A stretch of DNA of 20,339 nucleotides from a virus, in IMG/VR virus record IMGVR_UViG_3300030060_002293, positions 1 through 20,339 of that record, one strand, 5' to 3'. Under the pieces are notes generated by a model that saw nothing but the letters and a program-made list of their open reading frames with translations, was not told the DNA's origin and did not search any database. The translations under genes and the position numbers were made by a program. Of the stretch, positions 1 through 20,339 are shown one piece after another (position 1 is the stretch's first letter; each line of letters opens with the position of its first letter).

Positions 1-107
1 CCTTTGAAAATATCTCTAAGCGCATGGACCACGACCCAGTCTTGCTCTTGTGGGTACTTGTCATGGATTGCATTCCAGGCTGCTGGATAACAGTTACCTG
101 CACCCAT
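1..107 (-). CDS. small phage protein, N-terminal part (runs off the window)
   Basis: The start codon is at 107 and the frame stays open to base 1, giving 35 residues that begin MGAGNCYPAAWNAI. Its ATG shares one base with the TAA stop of the gene before it (TAATG), and an AAAGGAGG-type ribosome site lies just ahead, so the start is well supported. The GNCYPAA beginning recalls a family of small phage proteins that start with GNCYEAA-like motifs and carry a possible catalytic Cys. I cannot confirm that family from 35 residues, and the function is unknown. It is the last visible gene of the - strand series 1589 to 1. Confidence 0.7.
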   Translation of the reverse strand, partial: MGAGNCYPAAWNAIHDKYPQEQDWVVVHALRDIFK

Positions 108-415
108 TAGGCATCCTCCTTTACTTTTCCATTAGGGTTATATGACCAGTGATATTCTCTTGATGTATCTTTGTGAAATAAATCATCCATACTTGCAAGT
201 AATTGCAAATCGTGAATTATTTTTCTTAGGTCTTGCATCTTGCGAATATTTAATTGATTTCTTGAACTACCTACTCTGACTGTTACTTCTGGGTGATTAG
301 TATATGTATTTTCCCAGCGGTCTATACCATCGTACCAAGTCACAGACACATCGTGATTCCATGCACTTTTTTTCTTGCTATAAAAATGCTCCCAAATATC
401 TTTTTTGCTTTTCAT
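107..415 (-). CDS. hypothetical protein, 102 aa
   Basis: Unrecognised soluble protein, rich in Lys, Asp, His and aromatic residues, with no membrane segment or signal peptide. The stretch around residues 55-78 (RKMQDLRKIIHDLQLLASMDDLF) is predicted by eye to be a helix. The start is supported by AAGGAAGG about 6 bases ahead of the ATG, the same site used by its neighbours. It overlaps the next gene by one base (TAATG), which suggests translational coupling. It lies in a - strand operon of small genes that follows the P-loop gene, typical of phage early or accessory regions. No function can be assigned. Confidence 0.75.
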   Translation of the reverse strand: MKSKKDIWEHFYSKKKSAWNHDVSVTWYDGIDRWENTYTNHPEVTVRVGSSRNQLNIRKMQDLRKIIHDLQLLASMDDLFHKDTSREYHWSYNPNGKVKEDA

Positions 416-494
416 TCTTTACCTTCCTTAACTATCACATAACCATTGTACACATTTGTGTAACTTATGTAGTCATTTTTATATTTATTATTTT

Positions 495-806
495 TCATGC
501 TGCTATTTCTAATTCTTGAATCTTCTCTACTTGTAAATAGAAATCCAACTCATAGTCATTGTGAACATAGTATCTCTGGACTTTGTTATCTATCATGCCA
601 GAGGTATATTTTCTTTGCTCTTTAGATTTTACAATTGGTGTCTTGTAAACATCTATCTCATCCCAGAAGTTTTTTAATTCTTCTACGGTGCCTTCCTTTG
701 ACCATTCACCATTTGTTTTAGTAAATCCGAACTCTTCCAAATATAATTTTTTTGTACTGCCTAACACTGGCTTTACTACAACTAGCTTTGCAATTTCTTT
801 TACCAT
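495..806 (-). CDS. hypothetical protein, 103 aa
   Basis: Unrecognised protein of mixed charge. The N-terminal part (residues 1-50) contains a short hydrophobic strand (KLVVVKPVL) and then an LYLEEFGFTKTNGEW segment. The C-terminal part (70-103) is rich in Tyr and Asp and ends in a likely helix. A GGAAGGAAGG site precedes the ATG by about 8 bases. There is an 80-base gap to the next gene, which has its own ribosome site. No membrane segment is seen. It could be a small regulatory or DNA-metabolism accessory protein, but nothing in the sequence decides this. Confidence 0.75.
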   Translation of the reverse strand: MVKEIAKLVVVKPVLGSTKKLYLEEFGFTKTNGEWSKEGTVEELKNFWDEIDVYKTPIVKSKEQRKYTSGMIDNKVQRYYVHNDYELDFYLQVEKIQELEIAA

Positions 807-830
807 TTTATTTTTCCTTCCTTCCTTTAA

Positions 831-974
831 TTATCCGCAGCCGCACTGACTGGCATCTATCTCATTCTTGAATTTCATCGTGTCACGTTCTGGCCCAGTT
901 ATCTGGTACACATCCCGCTTGACTTCATTCCCGAATATATCTACCCAGATTATTTCTTCTTGCTTGCTCTTCAT
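831..974 (-). CDS. small hypothetical protein, 47 aa, Cys-containing tail
   Basis: A 47-residue frame beginning MKSKQEEIIWVDIFGN and ending ASQCGCG, with TAA at 833-831. AAGGAAGGT lies about 5 bases before the ATG, as in the neighbouring genes. It sits 12 bases after the stop of the P-loop gene and 24 bases before the next start, so it fills its slot in the operon exactly. These are the reasons for calling it real despite its length. The CGC near the C-terminus could bind metal or form a disulphide, but that is speculation. I recognise no family. Confidence 0.7.
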   Translation of the reverse strand: MKSKQEEIIWVDIFGNEVKRDVYQITGPERDTMKFKNEIDASQCGCG

Positions 975-986
975 TTTTTACCTTCC

Positions 987-1589
987 TTATTTTCTCATTA
1001 ACTTGCTTAATGAAACCCCGATAATTTTTTTGATGAATGTAGATTTTATGGATTCATAACCCGATACTATCTCCAAATCAATGGCTCCAGCTGCGGCCAT
1101 AAATTTAAGATTCTGCGCAGTGGCTACCGTGCCAGCATAGTCAAGGGCCACCACTGATAATTTCATTGCGCGGCTGCTGGTCTTGTTTCGTCTGTAAACA
1201 TTTAATAAGCAGCTGGCCAATGAATTTTCTACATAAATAAATTTAACTTTTAACCCAGCATCTAAACCGTTCTTAATGTGATTCTGTACCTTGTTCCAAT
1301 CCTTGCCGCGGTTATCAAATAAAACTGAATCGGCTTTGTATCTTGCTAAGAATGTTTCGGGGTCATTGAAATAACTAGCTAGTAAATCTTTACTTAATTG
1401 GCTGGCTGACGGATGCAGCTGCTCATTAGTTACAGCATCTAAATCATTAAATGAATTTAAAGCCAGCTTTATTTTATCTGGGTCTATTACAAATCCATTG
1501 ACAGACTGCGCAGCCTGCGCGGCATGCCTTGACTTGCCCGACCCACTGGCCCCGATAATAAACGTGATTTGCTTTTGTTCAATTTTCAT
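987..1589 (-). CDS. P-loop kinase-like protein (zeta-toxin / polynucleotide kinase type)
   Basis: A nucleotide-binding protein of about 200 residues. A Walker A motif GASGSGKS lies at residues 13-20, straight after a beta strand (ITFII). It is followed by a VIDPDKIK segment like the strand-2/Asp region of zeta-toxin and AAA_33 kinases. A second hydrophobic strand (VKFIYVE, about residue 117) and an arginine-containing YRRNK helix (about 130) fit the lid or P-loop-kinase core. It probably phosphorylates a nucleotide, polynucleotide or sugar substrate; the substrate is not visible. An in-frame ATG also exists at 1607, but I chose 1589 because TATAAT at 1597-1602 lies 7 bases ahead and neither ATG has a Shine-Dalgarno site, so the gene looks leaderless. 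It heads the - strand operon. Confidence 0.75.
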   Translation of the reverse strand: MKIEQKQITFIIGASGSGKSRHAAQAAQSVNGFVIDPDKIKLALNSFNDLDAVTNEQLHPSASQLSKDLLASYFNDPETFLARYKADSVLFDNRGKDWNKVQNHIKNGLDAGLKVKFIYVENSLASCLLNVYRRNKTSSRAMKLSVVALDYAGTVATAQNLKFMAAAGAIDLEIVSGYESIKSTFIKKIIGVSLSKLMRK

Positions 1590-1596
1590 ATAATCC

Positions 1597-1602
1597 ATTA
1601 TA
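1597..1602 (-). promoter_or_regulatory. -10 box of a leaderless promoter for the P-loop gene
   Basis: Perfect TATAAT, 7 bases before the ATG at 1589, preceded by TGCC, which is close to an extended -10. Transcription would start at or within one base of the A of ATG. No good -35 is visible 16-18 bases upstream. Confidence 0.5.
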
Positions 1603-1751
1603 GGCATACTTTTGTAACTAATGGTAACAATTTATAAATAATTTTATTTTATGTTTACCCAGTTAATTTATGTTGGTTGAATCTATCAATCCTTTACAAT
1701 CAAGGCCATGCCATATTCATTTTTAAAAAAAATAGAGGGGTATTTTTACAC

Positions 1752-1823
1752 CTACTTACATAACCAGTGAAACAAGGCTTTTATTTCTAAAAGGCTAGTT
1801 TTATTGACCTGCTTGCGCAACAT
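1752..1823 (-). CDS. candidate leaderless micro-protein, 23 aa
   Basis: A 23-codon frame starting MLRKQVNKTSLLEIK and ending HWLCK, TAG stop. The composition is an amphipathic basic helix with an aromatic C-terminal part. There is no ribosome site. Instead TATAAC at 1831-1836 lies exactly 7 bases before the ATG, with TTTAGA 17 bases further up. This is the same layout as the P-loop gene and the zinc-protein gene at 2533, and it is the only reason to consider so short a frame. It could equally be a chance frame or a leader peptide of the P-loop transcript. Confidence 0.3.
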   Translation of the reverse strand: MLRKQVNKTSLLEIKALFHWLCK

Positions 1824-1830
1824 AATATAT

Positions 1831-1859
1831 GTTATAGGACAAACAAACGGGAATCTAAA
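1831..1859 (-). promoter_or_regulatory. promoter candidate, - strand
   Basis: TTTAGA (1854-1859), a 17-base spacer, then TATAAC (1831-1836), read on the - strand. The expected start is at or next to the ATG of the 23-codon frame at 1823, so the transcript would be leaderless and could also read into the P-loop gene. Confidence 0.45.
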
Positions 1860-1911
1860 TTTGCGTGGTGGGTATTCGTATTCGTAACACTAAGTTATTG
1901 TATTGCCAATT

Positions 1912-2536: not shown

Positions 2537-2539
2537 ATT

Positions 2540-2545: not shown

Positions 2546-2558
2546 GATAGGAGAAACA

Positions 2559-2618: not shown

Positions 2619-2620
2619 GA

Positions 2621-3582: not shown

Positions 3583-5475
3583 GTGGCAAATCTCAAAACA
3601 GTTAAGTGTCCACACTGTGGTGATAAGTTTAAACAAGCACATGGCAGACAAAAATATTGCAAGATACAATGTACTAAAGCTGCAAACGCCAGGACACGAA
3701 CTGCAGAAAAAAAAGAACAAGAAAAATTACAGACACCTAGCAGTAGAGCTAATCGTGGTGAACATTATTTATATTTTGTAGAAAACTATGCACAAGAAAT
3801 TGATGAAGGATTACTTACACAAAAATTTGTAGCAGAAGATATAGGAGTTGACCAAAGTGTAGTTGCAAGAATGATGCTTGCTTATAAAGAAGATAAAGCA
3901 AAACTTGCAGCTAGAGAGAACTGGGATATACCAGAAGAAGCTAAGAGTTCTTTAAAATCTTTTAAAAAATTTAGAGATAGGTACTTCTTAACAGAAACAG
4001 GACAACAATACGAAACAGCTAAGTTTCATAAAAACTGGATTAAAAATATTTTAAAAGCTATTGATAAAGGTGAACAGCTTATGATTCTATCACCACCACG
4101 ACATGGCAAAACAGATTTACTTACACACTTTGCTGTATGGCAGATATGCCAAAATCCAAACATAAGGGTTATGTGGGTAGGTGGTAATGAAGATATTGCA
4201 AAAAACTCTGTAGGTTCAGTGCTTGACCATTTAGAGAACAATGAAAAACTTATAGAAGATTTTTGTGGACCAGGAGAAACTTTTAAACCAAAAAGCAGAA
4301 CAGGTAAAACTTGGAGTTCTGGACAATTTACTGTAAAAACTAGAACCGTAACTGGTATCAAATCACCGACTATGGTGGCTGTAGGCAAAGGTGGTAAGAT
4401 ACTATCACGTGACTGTGATTTAATTATTGCAGACGATATTGAGGACCACGGTACAACTGTGCAACCTAGTTCACGTGAACAAACAAAACGTTGGTGGACT
4501 ACAACATTGTCATCACGTAAAGAGGAACATACAGCAATTGTTGTCATAGGTTCAAGACAACATCCAGATGATTTGTATAACTCTTTGATTGACAATGATG
4601 AATGGGAGAAAATAGTAGAATCAGCTCATAGCTTAGATATTCCTATTGATAGTGGTGAACCAAAAGACCATACAAAACACATGTTATGGTCGTCAAAGAG
4701 AAGTTATAAGTGGCTCATGGCACAAAGGAGAAATGCCGAAACAACAGGTGGTCTTGCGATTTTTGAAATGGTTTACTTAAACAGACCTTTTTCAGAAGGT
4801 TTACAAATGTTTAAAGTAGATTCTTTAGATGCAGCAAGAGATGATTCAAGAATAGTTGGTCATTTACCACCTAAAACAAGATTGATTGCTGGTCTTGACC
4901 CAGCTGCTACTGGTTATCAAGCAGCATTCTTATGGGCATACGATGTAGAAAAAGGCAAACTTTACATGGTAGATATAGAAAATAAAAAAGGTGGAGGTAT
5001 TCCCCAGGCATTTAAGACAATTAAAGAATGGCATAGTAAGTATCAATGTTCTCATTGGATTATTGAAGAGAACGGATTTCAACGTGCAATAAGACAAGAT
5101 AGAGAATTAAAAGAATGGACAGCATCACGTGGCATACATTTAGAAGGACATCAAACACAAAAAAATAAATTTGACCCGTATTTTGGTGTAGGTTCTATGA
5201 GTGAACTATTTGACAAAGGTTTGGTAAATCTTCCTTATGGTAATGCAGATTCACAAAATAAGAGTAATATATATCGTAGGCAGCTTTTGTATTTTTCAAA
5301 TGCTGCTAACAAAGCAAGTAGCAAAGGATATAAGTCGGATATAGTTATGGCAAGTTGGTTTCCAATAAAAATTGTAAGAAGGTTACAAAAAGAATTTATT
5401 GCAGAAATGGGATATGATTATAACCCTAGTTACTCAAACATGAATATAAGTTCTATGAACACGGCACCATGGTAA
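3583..5475 (+). CDS. terL: terminase large subunit (packaging ATPase-nuclease) with N-terminal zinc ribbon
   Basis: Motor that cuts concatemeric DNA and pumps it into the prohead through the portal. Residues 9-30 have CPHC and CKIQC, a zinc ribbon. Residues 60-105 look like a helix-turn-helix (LLTQKFVAEDIGVDQSVVARM). The ATPase follows: Walker A SPPRHGKT at 170-177 and Walker B DLIIADDIED at 279-288. The nuclease domain has LIAGLDPAATG (D439), HWIIEENG (E495/E496) and KSDIVMASW (D586), consistent with the RNase H-like metal site. The 630-residue length is long for the family, because of the roughly 130-residue N-terminal extension. The start is GTG at 3583, with no clear ribosome site, 5 bases after the previous stop. 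No separate small terminase gene is visible, so the extension may take its DNA-recognition role. Confidence 0.92.
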   Translation: MANLKTVKCPHCGDKFKQAHGRQKYCKIQCTKAANARTRTAEKKEQEKLQTPSSRANRGEHYLYFVENYAQEIDEGLLTQKFVAEDIGVDQSVVARMMLAYKEDKAKLAARENWDIPEEAKSSLKSFKKFRDRYFLTETGQQYETAKFHKNWIKNILKAIDKGEQLMILSPPRHGKTDLLTHFAVWQICQNPNIRVMWVGGNEDIAKNSVGSVLDHLENNEKLIEDFCGPGETFKPKSRTGKTWSSGQFTVKTRTVTGIKSPTMVAVGKGGKILSRDCDLIIADDIEDHGTTVQPSSREQTKRWWTTTLSSRKEEHTAIVVIGSRQHPDDLYNSLIDNDEWEKIVESAHSLDIPIDSGEPKDHTKHMLWSSKRSYKWLMAQRRNAETTGGLAIFEMVYLNRPFSEGLQMFKVDSLDAARDDSRIVGHLPPKTRLIAGLDPAATGYQAAFLWAYDVEKGKLYMVDIENKKGGGIPQAFKTIKEWHSKYQCSHWIIEENGFQRAIRQDRELKEWTASRGIHLEGHQTQKNKFDPYFGVGSMSELFDKGLVNLPYGNADSQNKSNIYRRQLLYFSNAANKASSKGYKSDIVMASWFPIKIVRRLQKEFIAEMGYDYNPSYSNMNISSMNTAPW

Positions 5476-5479
5476 AGAT

Positions 5480-7207
5480 ATGAACACATCAGAATTACAA
5501 GATAAAATAACACAACTACATTACGATAATCAAGATAATCATAGTTCACGTGGACGTATTCGTTCTATTATGAACGGTGGTCCTTCTGGATTACTTGCTT
5601 TATTAGGTGACCAAATACAAGGTTTTGAAGATTGGCAAGTACCTATGCCTAACCTTATGATGTCTGGACTAGAACATCTAGCGCAAAAAATAGGTAGAAT
5701 ACCAAACTTAAAAGTTGATGTACCAAATAATAAAGATTCAGAACGTGCAAGAAAAAGAGCAGATAAAATAGCAAGAATTGTTACAGCTTATGATGATGTA
5801 CAAAGATTAGATTTACAAATGCCACAAGTTGGTAGATGGTTACCAGGTTATGGTTTTGCAGTTTGGATTATTAAAGAAAAAAAAGGTCCAGATGGTACAC
5901 CATATCCTTGTGCAGAATTACGTGACCCTTACAATTGTTTCCCTGGTTACTTTGGTGCAGACCAAATGCCTAAAGAAATGTCTGTTGTAAGACGTGTACC
6001 TAAATCATCCTTAGCAAAAATATATCCACAGTTTGAAAAAGAAATTAAAAAAGGTTATAACACAGTAAATATTGCTAGTGGTTACGCATCAGCATATCAA
6101 GATGCTTACAATGGTTCTTGGGCAAACTCAAATAATCAAGGTGACTTAGTATCTGAATATTACAATGAAGAAGGTACATACATTTACCACATGTCATCAA
6201 GTACAATATTAGATTTTATTCCTAATCCTTTAGAAAGTGGACCAGCTTTTGTTGTTGCAAAGAAATTTTCTTTTGACCAAATGCAAGGTCAGTATGACCA
6301 GATTATTGGATTAATGGCATCAATGGCAAAAATAAATGTTATGTCAATAATAGCTATGGAAGATGCTGTATTTACAGAAACAAACATTACTGGTGAATTA
6401 GAATCTGGACAATATAAAAAAGGTAGATTTGCAGTTAACTATTTTTCTCCAGGAAGTTCTGTATCAAAACCAGCATCTAATATTCCTTATCAAATTTTTC
6501 AACAGATAGATAGAATAGAACGTCAGTTACGTGTTGGTGCATCTTATCCAGCACAAGATGATTCACAATCACCATTAAGTTTTGCAACAGGTAGAGGATT
6601 AGAAGAATTAGGTGCATCTATGTCATTAATGATTAGAGAATATCACACAGTATTAGCAGATGCCGTTCAACAGATTGATTCTAAAAGACTTGAATGGGAT
6701 GAAAAAATGTATGGTGGTACAAACAAAGAACTATCTGGATATTATAACAATGAGTTCTTTTCTGAAAAGTATGAACCAAGTACAGATATAAACGGTGCTT
6801 TTAAAACTAGACGTGTTTATGGTGCTATGGCTGGTTATGATGAACCACAGAAGATTGTTACAGGGCTGCAACTTCTTAGTTCTGGTGTTATTGACACACA
6901 AACATTACAAGAAAACTTAGATGGATTAGATAACTTAGCTATGGTCAATGAGAGAATTACAAGAGAAAAAATGGACAAAGTATTAGAAGATACATTATTA
7001 CAACAAGCATCTGGTGGAGATGAGAAGGCTATTATGGCTGTTGTGCAAATTAGAAAAAATCCAGGTAATATGCAGAGCATCTTAGATAAATTTTTTACAG
7101 CAGAAAAACCCGACATACCAGAGCCAGAAGCTCAACTATTAGAAGGTCAAGGTCCCACCACCACGGGACCTGCGCCTTCTATACAACAAGCATTAGGACT
7201 GGGATGA
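5480..7207 (+). CDS. portal protein
   Basis: The ring at the unique capsid vertex through which DNA enters and leaves. The call rests on position straight after the large terminase, length (575 residues, usual for portals) and general layout: an N-terminal helical part with WQVPMPNLMM, a central mixed domain with ELRDPYNCFPG, and a long helical stretch (FDQMQGQYDQIIGLMASMAKIN, later SLMIREYHTVLADAVQQID) like portal stem and crown helices. The C-terminus is Pro/Gln-rich and flexible. The start follows the terminase stop by 4 bases and the stop overlaps the next gene (ATGA). No catalytic motif is expected. Confidence 0.85.
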   Translation: MNTSELQDKITQLHYDNQDNHSSRGRIRSIMNGGPSGLLALLGDQIQGFEDWQVPMPNLMMSGLEHLAQKIGRIPNLKVDVPNNKDSERARKRADKIARIVTAYDDVQRLDLQMPQVGRWLPGYGFAVWIIKEKKGPDGTPYPCAELRDPYNCFPGYFGADQMPKEMSVVRRVPKSSLAKIYPQFEKEIKKGYNTVNIASGYASAYQDAYNGSWANSNNQGDLVSEYYNEEGTYIYHMSSSTILDFIPNPLESGPAFVVAKKFSFDQMQGQYDQIIGLMASMAKINVMSIIAMEDAVFTETNITGELESGQYKKGRFAVNYFSPGSSVSKPASNIPYQIFQQIDRIERQLRVGASYPAQDDSQSPLSFATGRGLEELGASMSLMIREYHTVLADAVQQIDSKRLEWDEKMYGGTNKELSGYYNNEFFSEKYEPSTDINGAFKTRRVYGAMAGYDEPQKIVTGLQLLSSGVIDTQTLQENLDGLDNLAMVNERITREKMDKVLEDTLLQQASGGDEKAIMAVVQIRKNPGNMQSILDKFFTAEKPDIPEPEAQLLEGQGPTTTGPAPSIQQALGLG

Positions 7208-7748: not shown

Positions 7749-10700
7749 ATGTCATTTAGCACTTTTGACGCATCATCGTTTCAAGATGATTCAGAAACAA
7801 AAAGAGCTATAAGTAAAGCTGTAGCACCTAGTTCTGTAAATCAAGACCAAGCTAATCGTGCATCCGCAATAATAAAACGTTATCCAACAATAAGTAAAGG
7901 TTCTTTAGTTGGTGCAGTAAAACTAGGAATATCAGAAGATGACCCAAGACTAGGACAGATAGTTATGAAGGAATCTGTTTTAAAAGAAGAAAACGGATTT
8001 GATAAGTTAAAAGATGCTACACGTAGAGCAGTAAGAGGTGCTTTTATAGGATTCCAAAACTTATGGGAAAGTGGTGCGCCAAGAGGTGTTAGATATTTAG
8101 AAGGCAGACAACAAGGACTTACACATGATGAGGCTGCTAAATTAAGTAAAGCAACTTTGTTAGGTGAAATAGATTCTGCTAAAGCTGCAGGTAAAGATTT
8201 AGATTTAGGTGAAGGATGGTTTTTAGGAACAACAGACCCAACACAAACAGATGAATATAAAAATTTATTAGCTGCAGGTGTTGACCCATTAGCTGCAAGA
8301 GAGTTTGTAAGAGATAATATTTTAGGTGTACAGATATACGAAGAGCAAAAGAAAAAAGCAAATCAAATACAATTTGTAGGAGAACGTGCAGAAAAATTTG
8401 CTGCTGCAGGACTGGAACCTACAGTTACAATTGGTAGATATTTATTTAAGCCTATAGATGAAATAATAGAACCAGGCACAAAAGCATATAATTACATGAC
8501 TGGTGCAATAGATATTATTGCACAGATATTTGCTGACCCAGTAGCATTACTTGGTTTTGGTGTAAGTAAACTTGGAAAAGCTAAATCTACATTTACAAAC
8601 TTAGATAATCTAAGTGGAATGGCTAAAGTTTTTGAAAATACTGGTTTATTACAAGGTGCAAGAAAAAGTGTATTTGGTCCAACTACACAAGAGTTTTTAG
8701 CTGGTAAAGCTGGTGTGGGATTTAAAAAATTTCTATATGAAAACTCTACATCAGATATTATTGCTGCATCTAAAAATAATATTGATGATTTTAAATTTTA
8801 TGATGAACTAGAAAAATTTAAAGTTAACAATAAAGGAAAATCTTTTGAAGAGATAGATGCAGACTTTACAGAAAATCTTGTTAAGAAAAATTTATTATTA
8901 GAGGCTACGGCAGGCAACGTACCTACTGTAAGAAAAAAAGGTAATCGTTTAACAAAAATGTTAGAGAGAACATACGGTAATAGATTAGTTACCGAAAACA
9001 AAGATGACGCTTTTGTTAAATTAAATAGATTTATTAGATTAGCAACATCAGAAATGGATAAAGGACAACAAGCTGCAATAAGAACTAAGTTTATGTCTGC
9101 ATCTATAAAAGCACTCAATGATGCAGATGCACCTACAGCTACTGCTAGATTAGTAAATGATTTTATAACAAGAGATTTTAAACCACAAGTTGTAAAGGCT
9201 TTAGGTGGTAAAGAAAACTTAACTAAGTTTCAACAAACTCTTGTTGATAGTGGATTAGAAGTACAAGCTAAATTTATATCTGGTGCAAGAAAAGAAAAAG
9301 GTATTGTAAGAAGTTATGCAATAGAATCAACTGGAGAAAACTTACCATTGACAGATGTGCTTAAAAAATTACAAGGCGGTAAGTTAGATGGAGTTGATGA
9401 ACTTGTTGACCCAGTTACTGCACAACAACTTGCTGATGAAATATTCTTGCCAAACACAAGAGATGTAATAAGAGCTGCGAAAACATTAGATACAAAGTTT
9501 GGAAAAATAGGAAGTAAGATTGCCGCTAACAGTGGTGCCGAAACAGTAACAAGATTTATGGATTGGTACTATGGTGCATTGTTTAAACCTCTTGTTCTTT
9601 TAAGACCAGCATGGACAGTACGTGTGATTTTAGAAGAACAACTAAGAATGATGGCATCTGGTGTTACAAATGTTATTACACATCCAGCACAAATGATTGC
9701 AAGAGTTATAGGTAAAGAGAAAGAATCTGGTAAAAATTTATTAGGCAGCTTTGAAGATAATGCTAGTTTTATTGATGTAACTTTAAACGGTGCAGGTACA
9801 CCTAGTGCGATAAGAAGAGGTTACGGTGCAACAGGTGAATTTACAACTGTTACCAGGTCAGAAAATGTAAGAGCTTGGGGTGAAGCATCATTTAGAAACT
9901 TTATGCAGCACAAGTTTGACCCATTGTCAAGACGACTTGCACAAGCACAACTACAACCATCAGCTGCTAAAAGAAGTGCTGAACTAAGAAAAATTATAAA
10001 AGAAACACAAACTCCAGGAAATGTTTTAAATAAACATGTTAGAAAAGTTACAGGAGCAAAAGGTCATGCTTTTAATGGTGCAGGTTTTTCTAGTAGTCCA
10101 GGAGCTGCAAAAGCAGAAGAGTTTGTTCATTATGTAAATGCCGCAGTAGCACAAGCTACTGGAGGTAAAGTAGCAACAACTACAGCAAAAGCAGCAACAC
10201 CTAGAGCTGCAAGAAATTGGATTGATGAAAATGGTAATGATGATTTATTAAGAGCTTTAGCTAATGAAGATTTAACAGCACAAGAACTTGTAGGTCTAAA
10301 AAATGTAGATATGAAAAAGTATTGGGCTGGTCAACTTAAAGAACAGGAATACACATCAATAACTACACAGCTTAGAAAAAATCAAGATAAAATTAAAAAA
10401 GACTTTATAAAGAAATATAAAAAAGTATTACCAGAATCTGCAAGAGGAGAACTTAAAAACTCTATATCAAGACAAACAAGAATACTTGATGACTATGTAG
10501 ATATGGCATTTAATTTATTTATGACAGTACCAACAAAAACAATGTCAAGAGCGCCAACATTTAAAAAACATTACTGGGAAAAAGTAGGAGAGTTTGGTCA
10601 ACATCTCAATGCACAAACATTAAAAAAAGTTATAAAACAAGCTGAAGAGGCAGGACTTGCAAAAGGTACTGCATTAGAAAAAAAAGTTTTAAAACAACTT

Positions 10701-12419
10701 AAAAGTTATGAAGGTGTAAAAGGTGGTGTAAGCGGTATAGAACTTGTAGATAAATTAGCATCATCACATGCACTAACACAAACAAAAGCACTGCTTTATG
10801 ATGTAACAACTAAAACAAGACTTGGTAATGCTACAAGAGCTATCTTCCCATTCGGTGAGGCATACTTAGAAATATTTACAACATGGGCAAGACTACTTAA
10901 ATCGGAAGGTCTTAGACCTTTACGTAGGGTACAACAAGTCGTACAATCTGGTCGTGAACCAAATCCTATTTTTGATGATGAAGGACAAAAGGGATTCTTT
11001 TATAAAGACCCAAACACTGGAGAAGAGTTGTTCGGTTATCCAGGAGAAGGATTAATTAAAAAATTTATGTTTAAAGATTTAGAAGAAAACGGTGTAAAAG
11101 TTAATTTACCAGTATTCGCACAATCACTTAACATAGCAGGTAATATTGTGCCAGGATTTGGTCCAACAATAACTGTACCTATGGCTGTTATAAATAAACA
11201 ATTTAATTTATTAAGACCAGGTAAATGGGAAGAAACAGTATTCTTTGGAGATTTTTCTCCACCAAGAGTAGAAAACATTGGTGAGCTTTTAGGTTCAGCA
11301 ATTCCAGAACCATCATGGTTTAAGAAATTAAGAATAGCTTATGAAGTAGGTGGAGCAGAGGCTAAAAGACAATTCTCAAATACCACTATTGATGTATATA
11401 AAGCATTGTTATATGCAGGACAAATAGAAGATAATACACCAGAAGGTGCAAGCGCAGGTATTGAGTTAGCAGCAGACTATGCAAGAAAAATATTTATTAT
11501 AAGGTCAATTGCACAAGCTATAGGACCAGCTGGACCAGTCGCACCTAAATATGAAATATCTGATGAAACAGGTACGTTTTATTTATTTGAAACATTAGCA
11601 CAAGAGTATTGGAATATACAAAATGCTACACAAGATTCAACAACAGCTGTTCAAGTGTTCACAGATAGATTTGGTTTTGACCCAGTAGCTATGGCAACGG
11701 GTAGAACATTTACTGTTAAGAAAAGACCAGTAACACAAGATGGTGCTGTATGGGAAAGAAAAAATCCAGAACTTGTAGAAAAGTTTGATTTAACTTACGC
11801 ATTTTTAATTGATGAAACAGAATCTGAATTTTTATATGAACAATATTATGCACAGCTTTTAAGTGGTGATAGAGTTCCAAAGACTGCTGAACAATGGCAA
11901 CAATCTAAAAACATTCTTTTAGGAAATATAGAATACGAAGAATTTTTAAAAAAGAATAATTTACTAAACAAAAATGACAAAGTATCAATACAGGCTAAAA
12001 GAAATAAAAAAGCAGAGATAGCTATGAGATACCCTGGATATGGTAGAAGTATTGATTACAGTCCTACTAAACCAGAAATAGATGATTTGATTGATGAGTT
12101 ATATACTTGGATAAATCCAGCAACGTATGTTTTAGACCCAAGACTTGCTGGTAATCCAGCAGCAGAAGGGCTAAAAGAATATCTTATGTTAAGAGATAAA
12201 GTTATTGCAGATACAAAAAAATTACCAGGTGGTTATTCAGATACTTCCTTCAGACGTGCTAATAAACTAGCACCTTATAGAACCTTGTTAAGGAATAAAA
12301 TTAAAGCTATATTGGTTACAAAGCCAGAATTTGCACCGATAGCAAAAGAAATATTTGAAAGAGAATTACGTGAGGCAGAAGAAGATATAGAATTATTAAA
12401 GGGATTATATGACAGTTGA
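7749..12419 (+). CDS. giant virion protein, 1556 aa (probable internal/ejected protein)
   Basis: The largest gene here. It is mostly helical, rich in Lys and Ala, with no catalytic motif I can name. Notable parts: a hydrophobic segment AQIFADPVALLGFGVSKLG near residues 255-275; FKPLVLLRPAWTVRVILEEQ near 612-631; PFGEAYLEIFTTWARLL near 1034-1050; and a Gly/Pro/Val-rich stretch IAGNIVPGFGPTITVPMAV near 1128-1146. The LLRPAWTVR and PFGEA motifs recur, to my memory, in large proteins of related uncultured actinobacterial phages. Size, short hydrophobic stretches and position before a transglycosylase-like gene recall podovirus internal virion proteins that are ejected to form a channel. That is inference, and a tape-measure protein or a MuF-linked head protein are alternatives. 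It starts 1 base after the previous stop; 11 bases overlap the next gene. Confidence 0.75.
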   Translation: MSFSTFDASSFQDDSETKRAISKAVAPSSVNQDQANRASAIIKRYPTISKGSLVGAVKLGISEDDPRLGQIVMKESVLKEENGFDKLKDATRRAVRGAFIGFQNLWESGAPRGVRYLEGRQQGLTHDEAAKLSKATLLGEIDSAKAAGKDLDLGEGWFLGTTDPTQTDEYKNLLAAGVDPLAAREFVRDNILGVQIYEEQKKKANQIQFVGERAEKFAAAGLEPTVTIGRYLFKPIDEIIEPGTKAYNYMTGAIDIIAQIFADPVALLGFGVSKLGKAKSTFTNLDNLSGMAKVFENTGLLQGARKSVFGPTTQEFLAGKAGVGFKKFLYENSTSDIIAASKNNIDDFKFYDELEKFKVNNKGKSFEEIDADFTENLVKKNLLLEATAGNVPTVRKKGNRLTKMLERTYGNRLVTENKDDAFVKLNRFIRLATSEMDKGQQAAIRTKFMSASIKALNDADAPTATARLVNDFITRDFKPQVVKALGGKENLTKFQQTLVDSGLEVQAKFISGARKEKGIVRSYAIESTGENLPLTDVLKKLQGGKLDGVDELVDPVTAQQLADEIFLPNTRDVIRAAKTLDTKFGKIGSKIAANSGAETVTRFMDWYYGALFKPLVLLRPAWTVRVILEEQLRMMASGVTNVITHPAQMIARVIGKEKESGKNLLGSFEDNASFIDVTLNGAGTPSAIRRGYGATGEFTTVTRSENVRAWGEASFRNFMQHKFDPLSRRLAQAQLQPSAAKRSAELRKIIKETQTPGNVLNKHVRKVTGAKGHAFNGAGFSSSPGAAKAEEFVHYVNAAVAQATGGKVATTTAKAATPRAARNWIDENGNDDLLRALANEDLTAQELVGLKNVDMKKYWAGQLKEQEYTSITTQLRKNQDKIKKDFIKKYKKVLPESARGELKNSISRQTRILDDYVDMAFNLFMTVPTKTMSRAPTFKKHYWEKVGEFGQHLNAQTLKKVIKQAEEAGLAKGTALEKKVLKQLKSYEGVKGGVSGIELVDKLASSHALTQTKALLYDVTTKTRLGNATRAIFPFGEAYLEIFTTWARLLKSEGLRPLRRVQQVVQSGREPNPIFDDEGQKGFFYKDPNTGEELFGYPGEGLIKKFMFKDLEENGVKVNLPVFAQSLNIAGNIVPGFGPTITVPMAVINKQFNLLRPGKWEETVFFGDFSPPRVENIGELLGSAIPEPSWFKKLRIAYEVGGAEAKRQFSNTTIDVYKALLYAGQIEDNTPEGASAGIELAADYARKIFIIRSIAQAIGPAGPVAPKYEISDETGTFYLFETLAQEYWNIQNATQDSTTAVQVFTDRFGFDPVAMATGRTFTVKKRPVTQDGAVWERKNPELVEKFDLTYAFLIDETESEFLYEQYYAQLLSGDRVPKTAEQWQQSKNILLGNIEYEEFLKKNNLLNKNDKVSIQAKRNKKAEIAMRYPGYGRSIDYSPTKPEIDDLIDELYTWINPATYVLDPRLAGNPAAEGLKEYLMLRDKVIADTKKLPGGYSDTSFRRANKLAPYRTLLRNKIKAILVTKPEFAPIAKEIFERELREAEEDIELLKGLYDS

Positions 12420-13432: not shown

Positions 13433-14125
13433 ATGTCACAAGAATTAGTAGCATTTATGGAATCAATAAAGACACAAGAAAATGCTGGTGGTGATTATTT
13501 ATTAGAACACAAACCAACAATGATTAAAGGTTATGATGGTGAACCTATACAAGTCCAGGCGTTGGGTGCTTATGGAATACTAGATATTAACTGGGATAAG
13601 TGGGCAGAACAAGCAGGTTACAAAGGTGCAGACTGGAGAGTTCCAGAAATGCAAGATATTGTAGCTGCATATAAATTTACAGAATATTACAACACTTATG
13701 GTAGTTGGGATTTAGTAGCCGTAGCATGGTATGCAGGACCAGGCACAGCAAATAAAGCAAAAGCATTAGGTCTTGATTCAGTTGGTAATATAGAAAACCT
13801 AGAAAGTTTTGGACCTAACGTATCTGAATATGTAAATAGTGTTATGGATAAGTATGAAAAAGTATTAGAAACTGCAAGTAATGATACTGTTGATTCTTAT
13901 GTAAGTCAGACTTCTACACAAACTGTACAGCCAAACATACAAACACAAGACGATGGTATGTCACCAGAGCAAAACAAATTTGAAAAATACGCAGCACAAA
14001 TGTTAAGAGCATTAGTTCCAGACTATTCAGCAGATTATGAAACACAAGTTCCAAAACAAGCTGGCACTATGGAAGATAATGTTTTTAAAGCAGATGTTCG
14101 TAGAGGGAATCTAGGCACAGAATGA
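13433..14125 (+). CDS. lytic transglycosylase-like virion protein (SLT fold)
   Basis: Likely cuts the peptidoglycan glycan strand during entry. Motifs in order: TQENAGG with candidate catalytic Glu16, GAYGILDI at 45-52, and AWYAGPG at 98-104 followed by NVSEYVNSVM at 129-138. This is the standard order of SLT (goose-lysozyme-like) domains: Glu, GA-x-G-(I/L), then (A/N)-Y-N/A-x-G. The N in the third motif is replaced by A (WYAGPG), as in several phage members. Residues 150-230 are polar and probably a tail that ties it to the virion. There is no signal peptide and no holin nearby, which favours a structural over a lysis role. The start is 1 base after the previous stop; the end overlaps the next start (ATGA). 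Confidence 0.75.
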   Translation: MSQELVAFMESIKTQENAGGDYLLEHKPTMIKGYDGEPIQVQALGAYGILDINWDKWAEQAGYKGADWRVPEMQDIVAAYKFTEYYNTYGSWDLVAVAWYAGPGTANKAKALGLDSVGNIENLESFGPNVSEYVNSVMDKYEKVLETASNDTVDSYVSQTSTQTVQPNIQTQDDGMSPEQNKFEKYAAQMLRALVPDYSADYETQVPKQAGTMEDNVFKADVRRGNLGTE

Positions 14126-16152: not shown

Positions 16153-16979
16153 TGGCTACTTATTTAGAAGAGGCACAAGCACTATATCCTAATTTATCAG
16201 CAACACTTCTTAATTTGTTTGCAGCAGAGTGGGCCAAGTCTGGTAATCCAGTTACTGCAATACAAGAGGTAAGACAGACAGACGAATATAAAACAGAGTT
16301 CCCTGGTAACTACAATCCGTCAACTGGTCAAGTTAGATACAATGAAAATACATACAAGGCTTTAGAACGTTCTTACATTGGAACACTCCAGGAGTATGGA
16401 ATACCAGAACAAACATCAAGAGTTTTATTAGCAGATAGATTTGTAAGTTTATTAGAAGGAGAAGTATCTGCAAGAGAGTTTCAACAAAGAGTAAGTGCAG
16501 CTTATGAAGGTATTGTAGATAATATTCAAGGAGTACAAAACTTCTTTTCTAGTAATTACAACGTTGACTTAACACCAGAGGCAATCTTTATGGGAGCATT
16601 GGACCCTTCAATAGGTGAAGAATTAATACAAGGTAGAATTACTGCAGCACAAATTGGTGGTGAGGCTGCAAGAGCTGGGTTTACAATAACAAGAACAGAG
16701 GCAGAGAATCTAAGAGCTGCTGGTTTAACACAACAACAAGCAAGACAATTGTACAGTGCAGCACAAAGAGATTTACCTAGACTTATAGAAGTACAACAAA
16801 GAGTTGAACCAGATGCAGAACAGTTATCATTAGAAGAATTTACACAAGCTGTGGTATTTCAAGATGCAGATGTATTAGAAAACATTAGTAGATTAGAGGC
16901 AGAAGAAACTTCTTTATTCACACCAGTTGGTGGTGCAGCTAGACGAGGTTCAAGAGTTACTGGACTTCAACAAGAATAG
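16152..16979 (+). CDS. conserved structural protein of unknown role, 275 aa
   Basis: Helical, Ala/Gln/Glu-rich. The opening ATYLEEAQALYPNLSATLL and the order FAAEWAKSGNP ... VRQTDEY ... FPGNY ... LEGEVSAREFQQRV ... LTPEAIFMGALDPSIGEELI remind me of proteins in the virion-gene block of other actinobacterial phages, where they follow a large structural protein. No enzyme motif. The C-terminus is basic with Gly and Arg (GGAARRGSR). It starts on a TAATG overlap. It is the last gene before the terminator pair, so it ends the first rightward transcript. Confidence 0.65.
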   Translation: MATYLEEAQALYPNLSATLLNLFAAEWAKSGNPVTAIQEVRQTDEYKTEFPGNYNPSTGQVRYNENTYKALERSYIGTLQEYGIPEQTSRVLLADRFVSLLEGEVSAREFQQRVSAAYEGIVDNIQGVQNFFSSNYNVDLTPEAIFMGALDPSIGEELIQGRITAAQIGGEAARAGFTITRTEAENLRAAGLTQQQARQLYSAAQRDLPRLIEVQQRVEPDAEQLSLEEFTQAVVFQDADVLENISRLEAEETSLFTPVGGAARRGSRVTGLQQE

Positions 16980-17028
16980 CAAAAACCCCAGCAGAAAATT
17001 GAACAAAAAAATTGCTAGGGCTTTGCTT
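16978..17028 (+). terminator. terminator-like hairpin after the first virion operon
   Basis: AGCAAA (16978-16983) pairs with TTTGCT (17022-17027), CCC with GGG, and AGCA (16990-16993) with TGCT (17013-17016), around an A-rich loop. The trailing sequence is TTATTTAATTATAAT, not a clean T run. It begins at the stop codon of the 275-residue gene. Confidence 0.5.
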
Positions 17029-17135
17029 ATTTAATTATAATATTTGGATATATTTAAAAATAGTTTATACTAAATTTATTGGATTTCTTTTCTGGCAACA
17101 GATTGGATATACCTTCCTTTCGTGATTACGTACTA

Positions 17136-17173
17136 AAAATAGTGGGTGTAAAAACCCACTATTTTATTTTTAT
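17136..17173 (+). terminator. strong intrinsic terminator
   Basis: Perfect 12-base stem AAAATAGTGGGT / ACCCACTATTTT (17136-17147 with 17154-17165), loop GTAAAA, then ATTTTTAT. This ends the transcript that starts near 2543. The stem ends are symmetrical, so weak activity on the other strand is possible. Confidence 0.8.
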
Positions 17174-17294
17174 AGGTTATAATAAAGTTATCGCATTGTG
17201 GACGTCTGCGAATATAAATGGATGCTACATTTTCCGATTCACCTCGGGGTGTGAATTGTGTAACAAATTCCCTGTATTCAATAGTCAGAAGTGG
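17174..17294. other. non-coding spacer between terminator and capsid promoter
   Basis: No gene. TATAAT at 17178-17183 lacks a -35, because the terminator stem occupies that place. A small hairpin, CACC-TCGG-GGTG (17240-17251), has outer pairs ATT/AAT. A frame of 88 codons crosses the terminator here and is not credible. Confidence 0.4.
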
Positions 17295-17323
17295 CTGACA
17301 ATTCTCATTGTTGTTAATTTAAT
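17295..17323 (+). promoter_or_regulatory. promoter for scaffold and capsid genes
   Basis: CTGACA (17295-17300), a 17-base spacer, TTTAAT (17318-17323): five of six matches in each box. It is the best sigma70-type match in the window. The predicted start is near 17330, giving a leader of about 60 bases with AGGAG at 17382-17386. Confidence 0.7.
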
Positions 17324-17392
17324 CTTGTCGCCTATCCCGTCATAATCCCAAGGATGATGGAGTTTTAGTAATACTTGGAGTAGGAGAAAAAA

Positions 17393-17866
17393 ATGGTAAA
17401 TGAAGAAAATATGGAAAACATAGAAGAAGATAAAGTACAAGAAGATAGTAATGCTATCAAGAACTTGCGTGAACGCGTTAAAGAACTTGAAATAGTAGAA
17501 AAAGAATACAAAACTGTAAAGATGGATTCTGCTATCCAAGATGCTGGCTTTGACCCAGAATCTGGGCAGGGTAAAGCATTAAAAGATTTGTACAAAGGTG
17601 AACTAAAAGCTGATGCTATACAGCAATTTGCCCAGGAACAATACGGATGGACCTCAGAAAGTCCTACCGAACCTGGACAACAAGATGCACAAAAAGCAAG
17701 AGTTGTTAGTAGCCAACAAAACTTAGATGATATGATTGACGATTCAATACCTGTAGAACCAGTTGCTATAGATGACCAGATAACGCAAGCGCAAGCGGAT
17801 GGTGATTGGCAACAAAGTTCTAATCTCAAAGCAGAACAATTAAGGACATTAACCCAAAAAAAGTAA
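17393..17866 (+). CDS. capsid assembly scaffold protein, 157 aa
   Basis: Directs capsid subunits into a prohead and is then lost. This is inferred from its place immediately before the major capsid gene and from composition: acidic, helical, no aromatic core. Residues 20-50 (IKNLRERVKELEIVEKEYKT) form a likely coiled coil. Then comes DAGFDPESGQGKALKDLYKG and IQQFAQEQYGW, a pattern common in scaffolds of actinobacterial phages (GFDP-x-S-x-x-GKAL ... A-x-x-x-G). The C-terminal tail is Gln/Lys-rich. AGGAG lies 6 bases before the ATG. It is expressed from the promoter at 17295-17323. Confidence 0.75.
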   Translation: MVNEENMENIEEDKVQEDSNAIKNLRERVKELEIVEKEYKTVKMDSAIQDAGFDPESGQGKALKDLYKGELKADAIQQFAQEQYGWTSESPTEPGQQDAQKARVVSSQQNLDDMIDDSIPVEPVAIDDQITQAQADGDWQQSSNLKAEQLRTLTQKK

Positions 17867-17871
17867 AGGAG
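17865..17871 (+). promoter_or_regulatory. strong ribosome binding site of the capsid gene
   Basis: AAAGGAG, 7 bases before ATG 17879; among the best Shine-Dalgarno matches on the + strand, as expected for the most abundant virion protein. Confidence 0.75.
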
Positions 17872-17878
17872 ATTTAAC

Positions 17879-18817
17879 ATGGGTGCAGTAAGCGGACTAG
17901 GTGATTCTTATGATTTACCTAATTTCGTGGGAGAGTTATTTAACATAACTCCTAGTGATACACCATTCCTTTCTGCTATTGGTGGAATGACTGGAGGTAA
18001 ATCAGTTACCTCTAAACAGTTCACCTGGCAAACAGTTGATAATGCAACAGCAGCTCAAACAGTAGTTGTTGAAGGTGCAGACGCAACTTTCGCAGAAAGA
18101 ACAAGAAGTCAAGTTGTAAACGTGACTCAAATTATGCAATATGGTGTAAACGTATCATACACAAAACAAGCAGCAACAGGAAACATCAGTGGTGAATCTA
18201 TACTTGGAAATCAACCAGTTCAAGATGAATTGGCTTTCCAATTAGATATGGCTATGAAGAGAGCAGCTAGAGATATAGAGTTCTCTTTCATACAAGGTGC
18301 TTATGTTGCAGATACAAACGTAACGACAGCAAGAAAAACCAGAGGAATGTTAGCAGCTATCTCAACAAACGAGAGAGCAGCTGGTGGAGGAGCTTTGACA
18401 CAGTCAGATGTGGACCAAGTTCTAAAAGCTATGGCAGATTCAGGAGCTCCATTTGAGCAACCTGTAATGTTTGCTAATGCCTTCCAAAAGCAAAAACTAT
18501 CATCTATCTTTTCAAGTGCTTTAGCACTTGCACCAAGAGATAGAAATATTGGTGGAGTAAATATCACCACTATTGAAACCGACTTTGGTGAGATTGGTAT
18601 TGTCTATAGCAGACACGTACCAACTGATGATATTATGATTGCTGACCTTGCGTATTGTGCTCCAGTATTCTTGGATATTCCAGGAAAAGGACACTTTTTT
18701 GCAGAACCACTTGCACAAACTGGTTCAGCTTATAAGTTCCAAATATACGGAGAAATTGGATTAGAGTATGGTCCAGAGCAATTCCACGGCAAAATTACAA
18801 ATCTAGCTACTTCCTAA
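17879..18817 (+). CDS. major capsid protein, HK97 fold, SU10/DUF5309-like
   Basis: Builds the icosahedral shell. The opening DLPNFVGELFNITPSDTPFL (about residues 11-30), followed by SAIGG and a SKQFTWQTVDN strand, is typical of the SU10 major capsid group (DUF5309). So are VEGADATFAERTRSQVVNVTQ and the helix DELAFQLDMAMKRAARDIEFSFI (spine helix of the HK97 fold). Residues about 180-230 form the A-domain-like part and the end (GKGHFFAEPLAQTGSAYKFQ ... EYGPEQFHGKI) matches the C-terminal strands of that group. The 312-residue length is normal. There is no protease domain in the protein and no separate protease gene nearby. The order scaffold, capsid, connector supports the call. Confidence 0.88.
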   Translation: MGAVSGLGDSYDLPNFVGELFNITPSDTPFLSAIGGMTGGKSVTSKQFTWQTVDNATAAQTVVVEGADATFAERTRSQVVNVTQIMQYGVNVSYTKQAATGNISGESILGNQPVQDELAFQLDMAMKRAARDIEFSFIQGAYVADTNVTTARKTRGMLAAISTNERAAGGGALTQSDVDQVLKAMADSGAPFEQPVMFANAFQKQKLSSIFSSALALAPRDRNIGGVNITTIETDFGEIGIVYSRHVPTDDIMIADLAYCAPVFLDIPGKGHFFAEPLAQTGSAYKFQIYGEIGLEYGPEQFHGKITNLATS

Positions 18818-18824
18818 TTAGGAA
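18811..18824. repeat. 14-bp perfect palindrome at the capsid stop
   Basis: TTCCTAATTAGGAA; the capsid stop codon TAA lies inside it. It may only add to the RNA structure downstream. Confidence 0.5.
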
Positions 18825-18837
18825 TTAGATAGTATAT

Positions 18838-18873
18838 TTATTAGAGGGAGATAAATACTTCTCCCTCTAGTAA
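18838..18873 (+). terminator. stable hairpin after the capsid gene (partial terminator or RNA-stability element)
   Basis: A 14-pair stem with one G-U pair, its core AGAGGGAG / CTCCCTCT, and an 8-base loop (TAAATACT). No run of T follows, so full termination is doubtful. Hairpins in this place commonly reduce read-through or protect capsid mRNA. Confidence 0.55.
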
Positions 18874-18886
18874 TATAGAAATAGAT

Positions 18887-19792
18887 ATGGCAGCAGTAAG
18901 CACACTTATAGACAGAATTTATAGAGATTTTTTAAACAAGCCAGATGATTTATCTGCTTTTTCTCGTTTAGATGGTGCTGTATCTAGCACTACAGCTACA
19001 ACTATAACTTACGAATCTGGTCTATTTTCATCAGAAGAAGAAAACTTATTAGGTAATGGTGCTTTAGTAGAAGTTGGCCAGGAGATAATGTTAGTTACAG
19101 CAGCTAACACTTCTACTAGAACATTGACAGTTGCTAGAGGTTATTCTGGTACTACAGCTGCTACTCATAGTGATAAAACAAATATATTTATAAATCCAAC
19201 ATTCCCAAGGAAGAGTGTTTTTGATGCTGTCTTTGATAATATTATAAGACTTTATCCAACGTTATATAATGTAACAACTACAAATGTAACTGCTAACACT
19301 ACATATCAAGAAGTTCCAGCATCAACAGTAGAAGTATTAACTTCTTATGTACAAAATTCAGATGGTGATAAATATACATCGGCTGGTATTGAATTATTAA
19401 AAGACTTCCCACCATCTTCAACTAATACAGCTGTACAGTTTTACAACACATCAAATGGTAGAACAGTGCATTTAGTTATAAAAAGAAAATTTGTTGGACC
19501 AAGTGCTGAAACAGATGATTTAACTACAACTTGTTTACTAGAAGATGAATACCATCAAATCGTTATGGTAGGTGCTGTTGCAGATATTGTTGGTGCAACT
19601 GATATTGACGCAACAACACAAGAATTTATTACAGAAAAATTAGCTGCTGAAAATTACCCAGTAGGTTCGGGAGAGAGATTAAGGAATGCACTACTTAGAC
19701 TTAGGTCATTATTAATAGATGAGGCAAGAGGCAATCTACGTTCTCTATATCCTGCACCAGTATCAATAATGAACATAAACTATAGTGCATAA
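18887..19792 (+). CDS. head-tail connector-like protein, 301 aa
   Basis: Likely an adaptor between portal and tail. Residues 1-25 are helical (STLIDRIYRDFLNKPDD). A beta segment follows with GALVEVGQEIMLVTA, then TLTVARGYSGTTAATHSDKT and INPTFPRKSVFDAVFDNIIR, then helical YPTLYN. The order VG-x-E-x-x-x-V ... V-x-RG-x-x-GT-x-A-x-H ... P-x-FPR recurs in proteins placed after capsid genes in many siphovirus- and podovirus-like genomes and is usually called adaptor or neck. The C-terminus has LAAENYPVGSGERLRNALLRL. The ribosome site is weak, and the start lies 14 bases after the hairpin. The call is from pattern and position. Confidence 0.6.
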   Translation: MAAVSTLIDRIYRDFLNKPDDLSAFSRLDGAVSSTTATTITYESGLFSSEEENLLGNGALVEVGQEIMLVTAANTSTRTLTVARGYSGTTAATHSDKTNIFINPTFPRKSVFDAVFDNIIRLYPTLYNVTTTNVTANTTYQEVPASTVEVLTSYVQNSDGDKYTSAGIELLKDFPPSSTNTAVQFYNTSNGRTVHLVIKRKFVGPSAETDDLTTTCLLEDEYHQIVMVGAVADIVGATDIDATTQEFITEKLAAENYPVGSGERLRNALLRLRSLLIDEARGNLRSLYPAPVSIMNINYSA

Positions 19793-20339
19793 TGTCTGTA
19801 TTACCTTCACCTAGCAATACGTCTGCACCAGAATCACAAGGTTTTGAGGCTAACCTAGACGATTTATTTTTACGTTTTGCTGTTGCACCAGATAGACAAA
19901 TGTCTATAAACACTGCTCCATTACAGGCCCAAGCAATACAAACATCAGAAACTCCAGAAGATTTCCAACAGGAGTTTGGTCAGATTTACTCCAGGACAGA
20001 TTTCGCAGGTGGTAGTGGTTTAGATAAAGCACATAGAAGAAATGCAGCTGATACAGATTTTCAAAGATTTTGGGATAGTAAGGGTGTTGATGTATTTAGT
20101 GGCAAAGCAGTAGGACAAGAATACAATATATCTTTACTACATGACACAACAGAATTATCTAGTTCTAGTAACTCTAACTTGTATATGGAAGAGTTAGGCG
20201 GTTCTATATTTTTTGCAGACAGTGATGTACTTAAAAGAATAGATACTCCAACTGCTGCCTCAATAACTGTTGTATCAGAAACTGCACCAAGTGCAGGTAA
20301 TGCAATAACAGGTTTAGCTGTACTAGGAACACAGTTGTA
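19792..20339 (+). CDS. tail or minor structural protein, N-terminal part (runs off the window)
   Basis: The frame starts on the TAATG overlap with the connector gene and is open to the window end (182 codons). Residues 1-20 are Ser/Pro-rich. Residues 50-95 carry TSETPEDFQQEFGQIYSR, then GGSGLDKAHRR and RFWDSKGVDVF, an order I associate with large virion proteins of actinobacterial phages. The rest (from about residue 108) is Ser/Thr-rich and beta-prone (YNISLLHDTTEL, GGSIFFADSDVLKRI), with short repeats of a kind seen in beta-propeller or receptor-binding proteins. The function is not fixed by the visible part. Confidence 0.65.
   Translation, partial: MSVLPSPSNTSAPESQGFEANLDDLFLRFAVAPDRQMSINTAPLQAQAIQTSETPEDFQQEFGQIYSRTDFAGGSGLDKAHRRNAADTDFQRFWDSKGVDVFSGKAVGQEYNISLLHDTTELSSSSNSNLYMEELGGSIFFADSDVLKRIDTPTAASITVVSETAPSAGNAITGLAVLGTQL

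Follow-up and report, generated by a model that had tools for sequence, protein, structure and literature searches.

Avoidance of restriction sites is a long-known phage strategy. A survey covering almost 4,000 viral genomes reports complete or near-complete site loss for about a tenth of them and under-representation of GATC in each of 46 phages with hosts that carry Type IIM GATC enzymes, and it describes avoidance as more characteristic of non-temperate phages (PMC6286503). The phage phiX174 has no GATC, and a study of it discusses mismatch repair as one reason (PMC5014478). Here we examine a stretch of 20,339 nucleotides, positions 1 to 20,339 of the IMG/VR virus record IMGVR_UViG_3300030060_002293 (the window, meaning this whole stretch), in which GATC is entirely absent. 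We consider restriction-site avoidance under host restriction the best explanation of this GATC-free genome, with a probability of roughly 85%.

The window adds a case to those already described, and its family differs from them in several respects. As in the surveyed phages, short palindromic sites, including GATC, are totally lost, mostly by silent changes; here, however, the losses fall within one uncultivated family, the lost words alternate by lineage, and the host enzymes are putative (compared with PMC6286503). Strong or total loss is likewise seen in phiX174 and in T7, which a preliminary description of the window had rightly cited as a low-GATC phage (6 GATC versus 140.7 expected). 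T7 retains CATG near expectation (148 versus 185), whereas other lineages of the present family retain GATC and have lost CATG. Genome-wide GATC usage also differs between related actinobacteriophages in the mycobacteriophages of cluster B3, but these use the word four times above expectation according to a report on them (PMC4841201), and the window has none. Among the papers listed in our literature searches, no title or abstract opening described alternating GATC and CATG loss within one phage family.

The preliminary description, made from the letters alone, had claimed that no GATC occurs in the 20.3 kb, and the full count is indeed zero. Base composition predicts 63.9 copies, a first-order Markov model 38.6 and a maximal-order model 53.6. 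The z score of the last, -8.9, is the most negative among the 256 tetramers of the window, and the sister words GATA (137), GATG (118) and GATT (158) do occur by the hundred, as had been stated. Two further words, TCGA and CCGG, are also absent (9.4 and 7.6 expected), and CATG is lowered (34 versus 56 expected); all three were missed in the preliminary description.

Tests at the codon level locate this deficit in the word rather than in the proteins. Specifically, synonymous codons were shuffled within genes 200 times for 17 chosen open reading frames (5,828 codons), holding protein sequence and codon usage constant. The shuffled coding DNA contained 53.6 ± 4.5 GATC (range 43-63) against none observed. 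Thus, neither protein sequence nor codon usage accounts for the zero. The same shuffles predict 13.6 TCGA and 7.4 CCGG. Avoidance is seen in all three codon frames: in these reading frames, aspartate preceding C is encoded by GAT 0 times and by GAC 43 times (278 and 43 preceding A, G or T), isoleucine following G uses ATC in none of 41 cases, and none of 337 NGA codons is followed by TC. The switch from GAT to GAC before C had been proposed earlier, and the examples then given, one Asp-Asp-Pro and two Asp-Gln sites in the portal-like gene, read as claimed (Table 1). The further claim that non-coding DNA lacks the word also stands, with 0 GATC versus 5.2 expected in the 2,916 bases outside the 17 frames.

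Comparison of relatives demonstrates that selection acts on the word itself, beyond neutral divergence. The GATC-bearing contig G036 and the GATC-lacking contig G037 align over 12,867 bases at 91.8% identity; all 27 GATC sites of the former are gone from the latter, whereas control tetramers are retained in 867 of 1,086 instances (80%). A single substitution separates 23 of the 27 sites from their counterparts, 21 of the 27 differences are silent and 6 are not, and the replacement words are varied (GGTC, GACC, GAAC, GTTC, AATC and TATC). Across 12 chosen bearing and lacking pairs, 2 of 127 GATC sites are retained, both in the pair G026-G034. When each GATC-lacking contig is compared with its best GATC-bearing partner (27 of the 38 had one, and a partner may recur), GATC is retained in 2 of 151 instances versus 67% of control words. 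Between contigs that both bear the word, retention is 198 of 285 (69%) versus 80% for controls. The same comparison for CATG yields 0 of 64 retained versus 63% of controls, and retention is similarly low for ACGT (6 of 73), GGCC (0 of 23) and TCGA (0 of 9). The direction of change, purge or regrowth, is left unproved by such pairwise comparisons.

Relatives of the window are common in IMG/VR, with at least 80 loci recovered by the capsid gene and 52 by the terminase gene. Two distant terminase loci (L129 and L132) were excluded from the family counts. All 50 close terminase loci have 0 GATC, but these lie nearer to the window and so are not independent of it. Taken over all loci, GATC-containing contigs have zero or nearly zero CATG and vice versa, and some contigs have neither. 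To this survey we added 50 long relatives picked from the loci by length and counted together with the window (51 contigs; G025 without its last 179 bases). GATC is exactly zero in 34 and CATG in 20; in each of the 51, one of the two words stands at or below 10% of expectation, 47 have exactly zero of one word, and CATG is zero in all 13 GATC-bearing contigs. A wider count began with 132 loci, of which 11 were set aside as short, distant or of low expectation; merging 15 contig repeats among the remaining 121 left 106 distinct testable contigs. All 106 have GATC or CATG at or below 10% of expectation and 102 have exactly zero of one; counted by locus, the figures are 121 of 121 and 117.

How unusual is such a pattern? 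We drew 80 AT-rich viral contigs as controls by means of an arbitrary 14-mer, of which 64 had a length of 5 kb or more. Among those testable, 8 of 62 have zero GATC and 3 of 63 zero CATG, and one or the other is lost in 10 of 61. Phages without any GATC are thus not uncommon, but it is striking that all counted members of one family have lost GATC or CATG. Subsets of the relatives have likewise lost TCGA, ACGT, GCGC, GGCC and CCGG. The 4-base words lacking most frequently among the 51 contigs (GATC, TCGA, CATG, ACGT and GCGC) are all palindromes, and the palindromes AGCT, CTAG, TGCA and GTAC never fall to 10% or less in those contigs where at least 20 copies are expected.

The distribution of these states is structured by descent. 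On a tree of eight concatenated proteins from 48 of the 51 contigs (quick method, midpoint root), the three word states require 8 changes, a number as low as which was reached in 0 of 200 shuffles; GATC changes 4 times and CATG 6 times. The clade of the window comprises 18 contigs, all CATG-bearing, with GATC zero in 17 and present in 2 copies in one, which argues that the loss of GATC is old and stable there. The family-wide either/or pattern is unusual, with few independent changes behind it. A hypergeometric probability of 2.4e-6 for the mutual exclusion of GATC and CATG was calculated and is not used as proof, because only 4 independent pairs on the tree differ and a sign test cannot reach significance with that number.

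The GATC-specific restriction in the host population that the preliminary description had suggested is supported. We hypothesize that this lineage of phages has a long history of replication in GATC-cutting hosts, such that each copy of the word would expose the genome to destruction with some per-site probability and selection would strip every copy, mainly through silent single-base changes. Restriction would be the agent, and Dam-family methylases found in the probable host order (see below) would be the modification half of GATC systems. The pool of hosts available to the relatives would hold several enzymes of differing 4-base specificity (GATC, CATG, TCGA, ACGT and others), and each lineage would thus have its own set of purged words, with GATC and CATG the commonest among words that have many expected sites. 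A more ambitious version of this proposal is that a standing rule applies: the host pool would be split between GATC-cutting and CATG-cutting populations, no lineage would keep both words, and the missing words would record hosts as well as imported segments. We regard this rule as tentative and somewhat doubtful.

Where the loss of a word is otherwise complete, the few remaining sites may point to imported DNA. Sites of this type cluster in 3 of the 4 contigs tested that have several of them. In G037, 5 CATG and 1 GATC lie within 3.3 kb of a 35.9-kb contig (0 of 20,000 trials as tight). In the 19.2 kb of G034, the 4 GATC are confined to 2.4 kb (P 0.008, uniform placement) and fall in three genes, two of which are nearest to the GATC-bearing G026 (95% and 99%) and one to a GATC-lacking contig; the 6 CATG of G034 are spread out, with no clustering. 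The 2 GATC of G021 are 144 bases apart at the contig end (P 0.007), and the 2 CATG of G038 are weakly clustered (P 0.07). Clusters of this kind, which are clear for G037, for the GATC of G034 and for G021, would be expected after recent import from a relative purged of other words. As a separate observation, the longest CATG-free run in the window covers 4,153 bases (13724-17877; P about 0.012, uniform placement), and G033 and G016 have longer runs, which may be exchanged segments.

Some matches to phage records hint at an actinobacterial host. The exonuclease of the relatives, encoded in a region outside the window fragment (query from G033), matches 826 phage records, 779 of them with actinobacterial genus names among the ten names listed. 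The capsid protein matches 83 phage records of mixed genera, and 19 of the best 20 are Mycobacterium or Propionibacterium phages. The terminase matches 336 records, among which Pseudomonas phages are the most numerous (61) and the 20 best-covered are Streptomyces phages. Actinobacteriophages are over-represented in phage collections, so matches to phage records are only a lead to the host. A capsid search of the species genomes of GTDB release 220 gave 29 pattern matches and no relative. Among 396 genomes of the phylum of an actinobacterial bin (G051), the capsid has matches in 7 (best E value 2.3e-127); because this one phylum was the only one searched, these matches do not single out actinobacteria.

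Starting from one actinobacterial bin, we reached an order comprising 42 genomes with sizes of 0.6-1.1 Mb, in which five stretches carrying rhodopsin have a guanine-plus-cytosine (GC) content of 33-36%. For 'Candidatus (Ca.) Actinomarinales', a published description gives about 32.5% GC (PMC7771536). The order is probably 'Ca. Actinomarinales' and its members the likely hosts of the phage family, which would make the source of the window marine. One of the 42 genomes, G577, includes two contigs (C36 and C30) with homologues of the terminase, portal-like and capsid genes in the same order as in the window, at identities of 52-56% for the terminase, 50-51% for the portal-like protein that follows it and 31% for the capsid. 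Each consists of a 43.8-kb unit that the contig covers more than once, and each has 0 GATC versus 111 and 124 expected per unit. Ten stretches of genomes from the order, chosen for their methylase genes, contain 11-39 GATC each, about half to all of expectation.

The preliminary description had suggested looking for GATC methylase or restriction genes in candidate hosts. In this probable host order, matches to the D12 methylase family occur in 7 of the 42 genomes; of these seven, six were scanned further and five exceed the NCBI cut-off for the Dam family (5 of 42). The DpnII family is found in 0 of 42. Two of the Dam-family methylases were compared with solved structures, and each is closest to DpnM. 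Two Dam-family methylases adjoin genes of nuclease families (PDDEXK_11 in one case, GIY-YIG in the other), and a third adjoins a DUF6996/DUF6997 gene. Examples of the Dam-family genes are L440:889-1878 and L442:5308-6288; neighbouring genes lie at L440:1941-2726, L442:4797-5306 and L443:6316-7215. DUF6997 is not a common methylase partner, being present in 1 of the 42 genomes; a solved-structure search with that gene gave a best E value of 0.005, from which no conclusion was drawn, and neither DUF6997 nor DUF6996 was named in the 5 papers listed by a literature search. C5 methylases are present in 9 of the 42 genomes and N6/N4 methylases in 37. In one genome, a gene of the MvaI/BcnI family of restriction endonucleases (L445:5009-5755) adjoins an N6/N4 methylase, indicating that Type II systems occur in the order. 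Judged by sequence, modification genes are therefore present and patchy in the order, as the phage pattern would require, and a GATC-cutting gene is a candidate only.

Two other genes of the order are recorded here in their own right. A DarT1-type NADAR antitoxin gene, which is not a nuclease, adjoins a Dam-family methylase (L439:4518-5231). A methylase gene whose open frame spans 276-292 residues (L420:1474-2310 and counterparts) occurs in 35 of the 42 genomes, in several of them some 7-8 kb from the rhodopsin gene; its nearest solved structure is 2zie, a putative modification methylase.

Could some force other than restriction of unmodified GATC produce the same genome? Escape from Dam-linked functions, such as methyl-directed mismatch repair and nicking of the MutH type, has a precedent in phiX174, where restoring 20 GATC sites lowered the mutation rate eightfold and the forces behind avoidance are called unclear by the authors (PMC5014478). 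The Dam-family methylases in 5 of the 42 genomes would also suit this explanation, but 35 of the 42 have no D12 match. It also predicts avoidance of GATC alone. The family loses CATG, TCGA, ACGT and GGCC in like manner, GCGC is lost in other lineages, and the window itself lacks TCGA and CCGG; mismatch repair does not explain these losses, which count against any explanation by Dam or mismatch repair only, and we consider it quite unlikely. Methyl-dependent restriction of the DpnI-like, Type IIM kind is unlikely as well. Under this proposal GATC would be methylated in a host or by a rival element and cut in another cell, which would accord with the lack of a DpnII-family cutter in all 42 genomes and with the survey, which ties GATC under-representation in 46 of 46 phages to hosts with such enzymes (PMC6286503). 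Alone, however, it would not explain the loss of CATG and of CG-centred words.

A further possibility is that the phages avoid a 4-base cutter of their own, directed against host DNA and varying in specificity by lineage. Relatives do carry DNA-modifying genes (C5, a DNA methyltransferase and a Mom-like gene) and the nuclease-type domains SNase and T5orf172, and many contigs are fragmentary, such that a gene could have been missed. Yet no phage gene cluster follows the GATC state across the 51 contigs: the best-tracking one, that of the kinase-like gene of the window, is present in 16 of the 38 contigs that lack GATC (counting the window) and in 0 of the 13 that bear it. We judge this alternative very unlikely. 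Mutational bias, codon usage or chance has a negligible share in our estimate. A low GC content makes words containing G or C rarer, but the synonymous shuffles never fell below 43 copies, GATA, GATG and GATT are common, and the replacement words are of many kinds.

Several observations weigh against host restriction as we have framed it. The order was recognized as probable Actinomarinales from genome size (0.6-1.1 Mb), GC content and rhodopsin. The phage contigs of G577 could be a binning artefact; that genome has no match to a D12 methylase (nor to a C5 methylase), and the ten GATC-containing host stretches come from other genomes; a 3.6-kb stretch of G577 itself (L403) has 9 GATC. No DpnII-family gene was found among the 42 genomes, D12-positive genomes are few, and the specificity of their methylases is deduced from family membership. 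Some non-palindromic words are also at or below 10% of expectation, among them the 4-mers CGTC (11 contigs) and ACGG (5) and the 5-mers CTCAG (29) and CACTG (16); Type II restriction at 4-base palindromes does not account for these. Finally, the either/or rule for GATC and CATG rests on few independent events, given that GATC changes only 4 times on the tree. As a side observation, CTCAG, CACTG, GAGAC, CCTGA, CATCC and CGTC are low in several contigs and could be asymmetric recognition sites.

If host restriction is the correct explanation, as we favor, then the family offers a natural record, on the scale of a whole phage family, of a pressure on phages of uncultivated bacteria that is most likely restriction. 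Sets of lost words could predict restriction specificities in uncultured host populations. Should the either/or rule also hold, missing-word barcodes would provide a readable host-population tag for uncultivated phages.

The window is probably a fragment of a tailed phage, because relatives run to 39 kb. Its genes include a terminase, a portal-like gene, an SU10-type capsid gene and one for a conserved protein of 1,556 residues (Table 1), and its GC content is 35%. SU10-type capsid phages of actinobacteria, including Mycobacterium phage Mendokysei and others, are its closest likenesses by capsid, with 44-48% identity over 98-100% of the length among the best 20 matches. In contrast to those phages, a nucleotide search of 50,697 phage records gave no match to the window, its portal-like gene matches no PHROG or Pfam family, and its phrog_7578-type gene has no tblastn match among phage records. 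No tRNA genes were found in the window or in 24 pieces.

Table 1. Positions of features in the window and the basis on which each was assigned.
Feature	Position	Strand	Basis
GATC-free stretch, TCGA and CCGG also absent	1..20339	.	word counts
P-loop kinase-like gene	987..1607	-	AAA_33, zeta-toxin and polynucleotide kinase profiles, all weak
Terminase large subunit	3583..5475	+	phrog_38, E value 2.5e-74
Portal-like gene	5480..7207	+	named by position and preliminary description; no PHROG or Pfam family matched
Asp-Gln as GAC CAA, portal-like gene	6275..6280	+	sequence
Asp-Gln as GAC CAG, portal-like gene	6296..6301	+	sequence
1,556-residue protein conserved in family	7749..12419	+	its cluster present in 48 of 51 contigs
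Asp-Asp-Pro as GAT GAC CCA, codon-level control	7938..7946	+	reads GATGACCCA
Major capsid protein, SU10 type	17879..18817	+	SU10_MCP domain (PF17236), 273 bits (cut-off 24.1); phrog_1328
phrog_7578-type protein	18887..19792	+	phrog_7578, E value 1.1e-39

Among the genes carried by the phages, the Dam (D12) methylase family PF02086 is found in 0 of the 50 relatives. No integrase appeared among 25 of the 28 family rows for 115 cluster representatives, a result obtained with no dedicated integrase search. A C5 DNA methylase is encoded in G002 (L136:5177-6349) and G036 (L194:5031-6191), the two copies being 85% identical. No retained motif could be tied to this enzyme beyond GATC-containing words, which the two contigs share because both are GATC-bearing. 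The one relative found for it in the species genomes lies in a Micromonosporaceae bin (L342) and matches at 45% over residues 1-162. G035 carries a Mom-like gene (L193:1789-2388, phrog_1384) and a C5-methylase-like gene (L193:5530-6132); a C5-like gene is also present in G010, and a DNA methyltransferase in G032. Near the latter lies a gene for a 291-residue protein (L188:18062-18937) that, by our own assignment, may match phrog_424, a phosphoadenosine phosphosulfate reductase.

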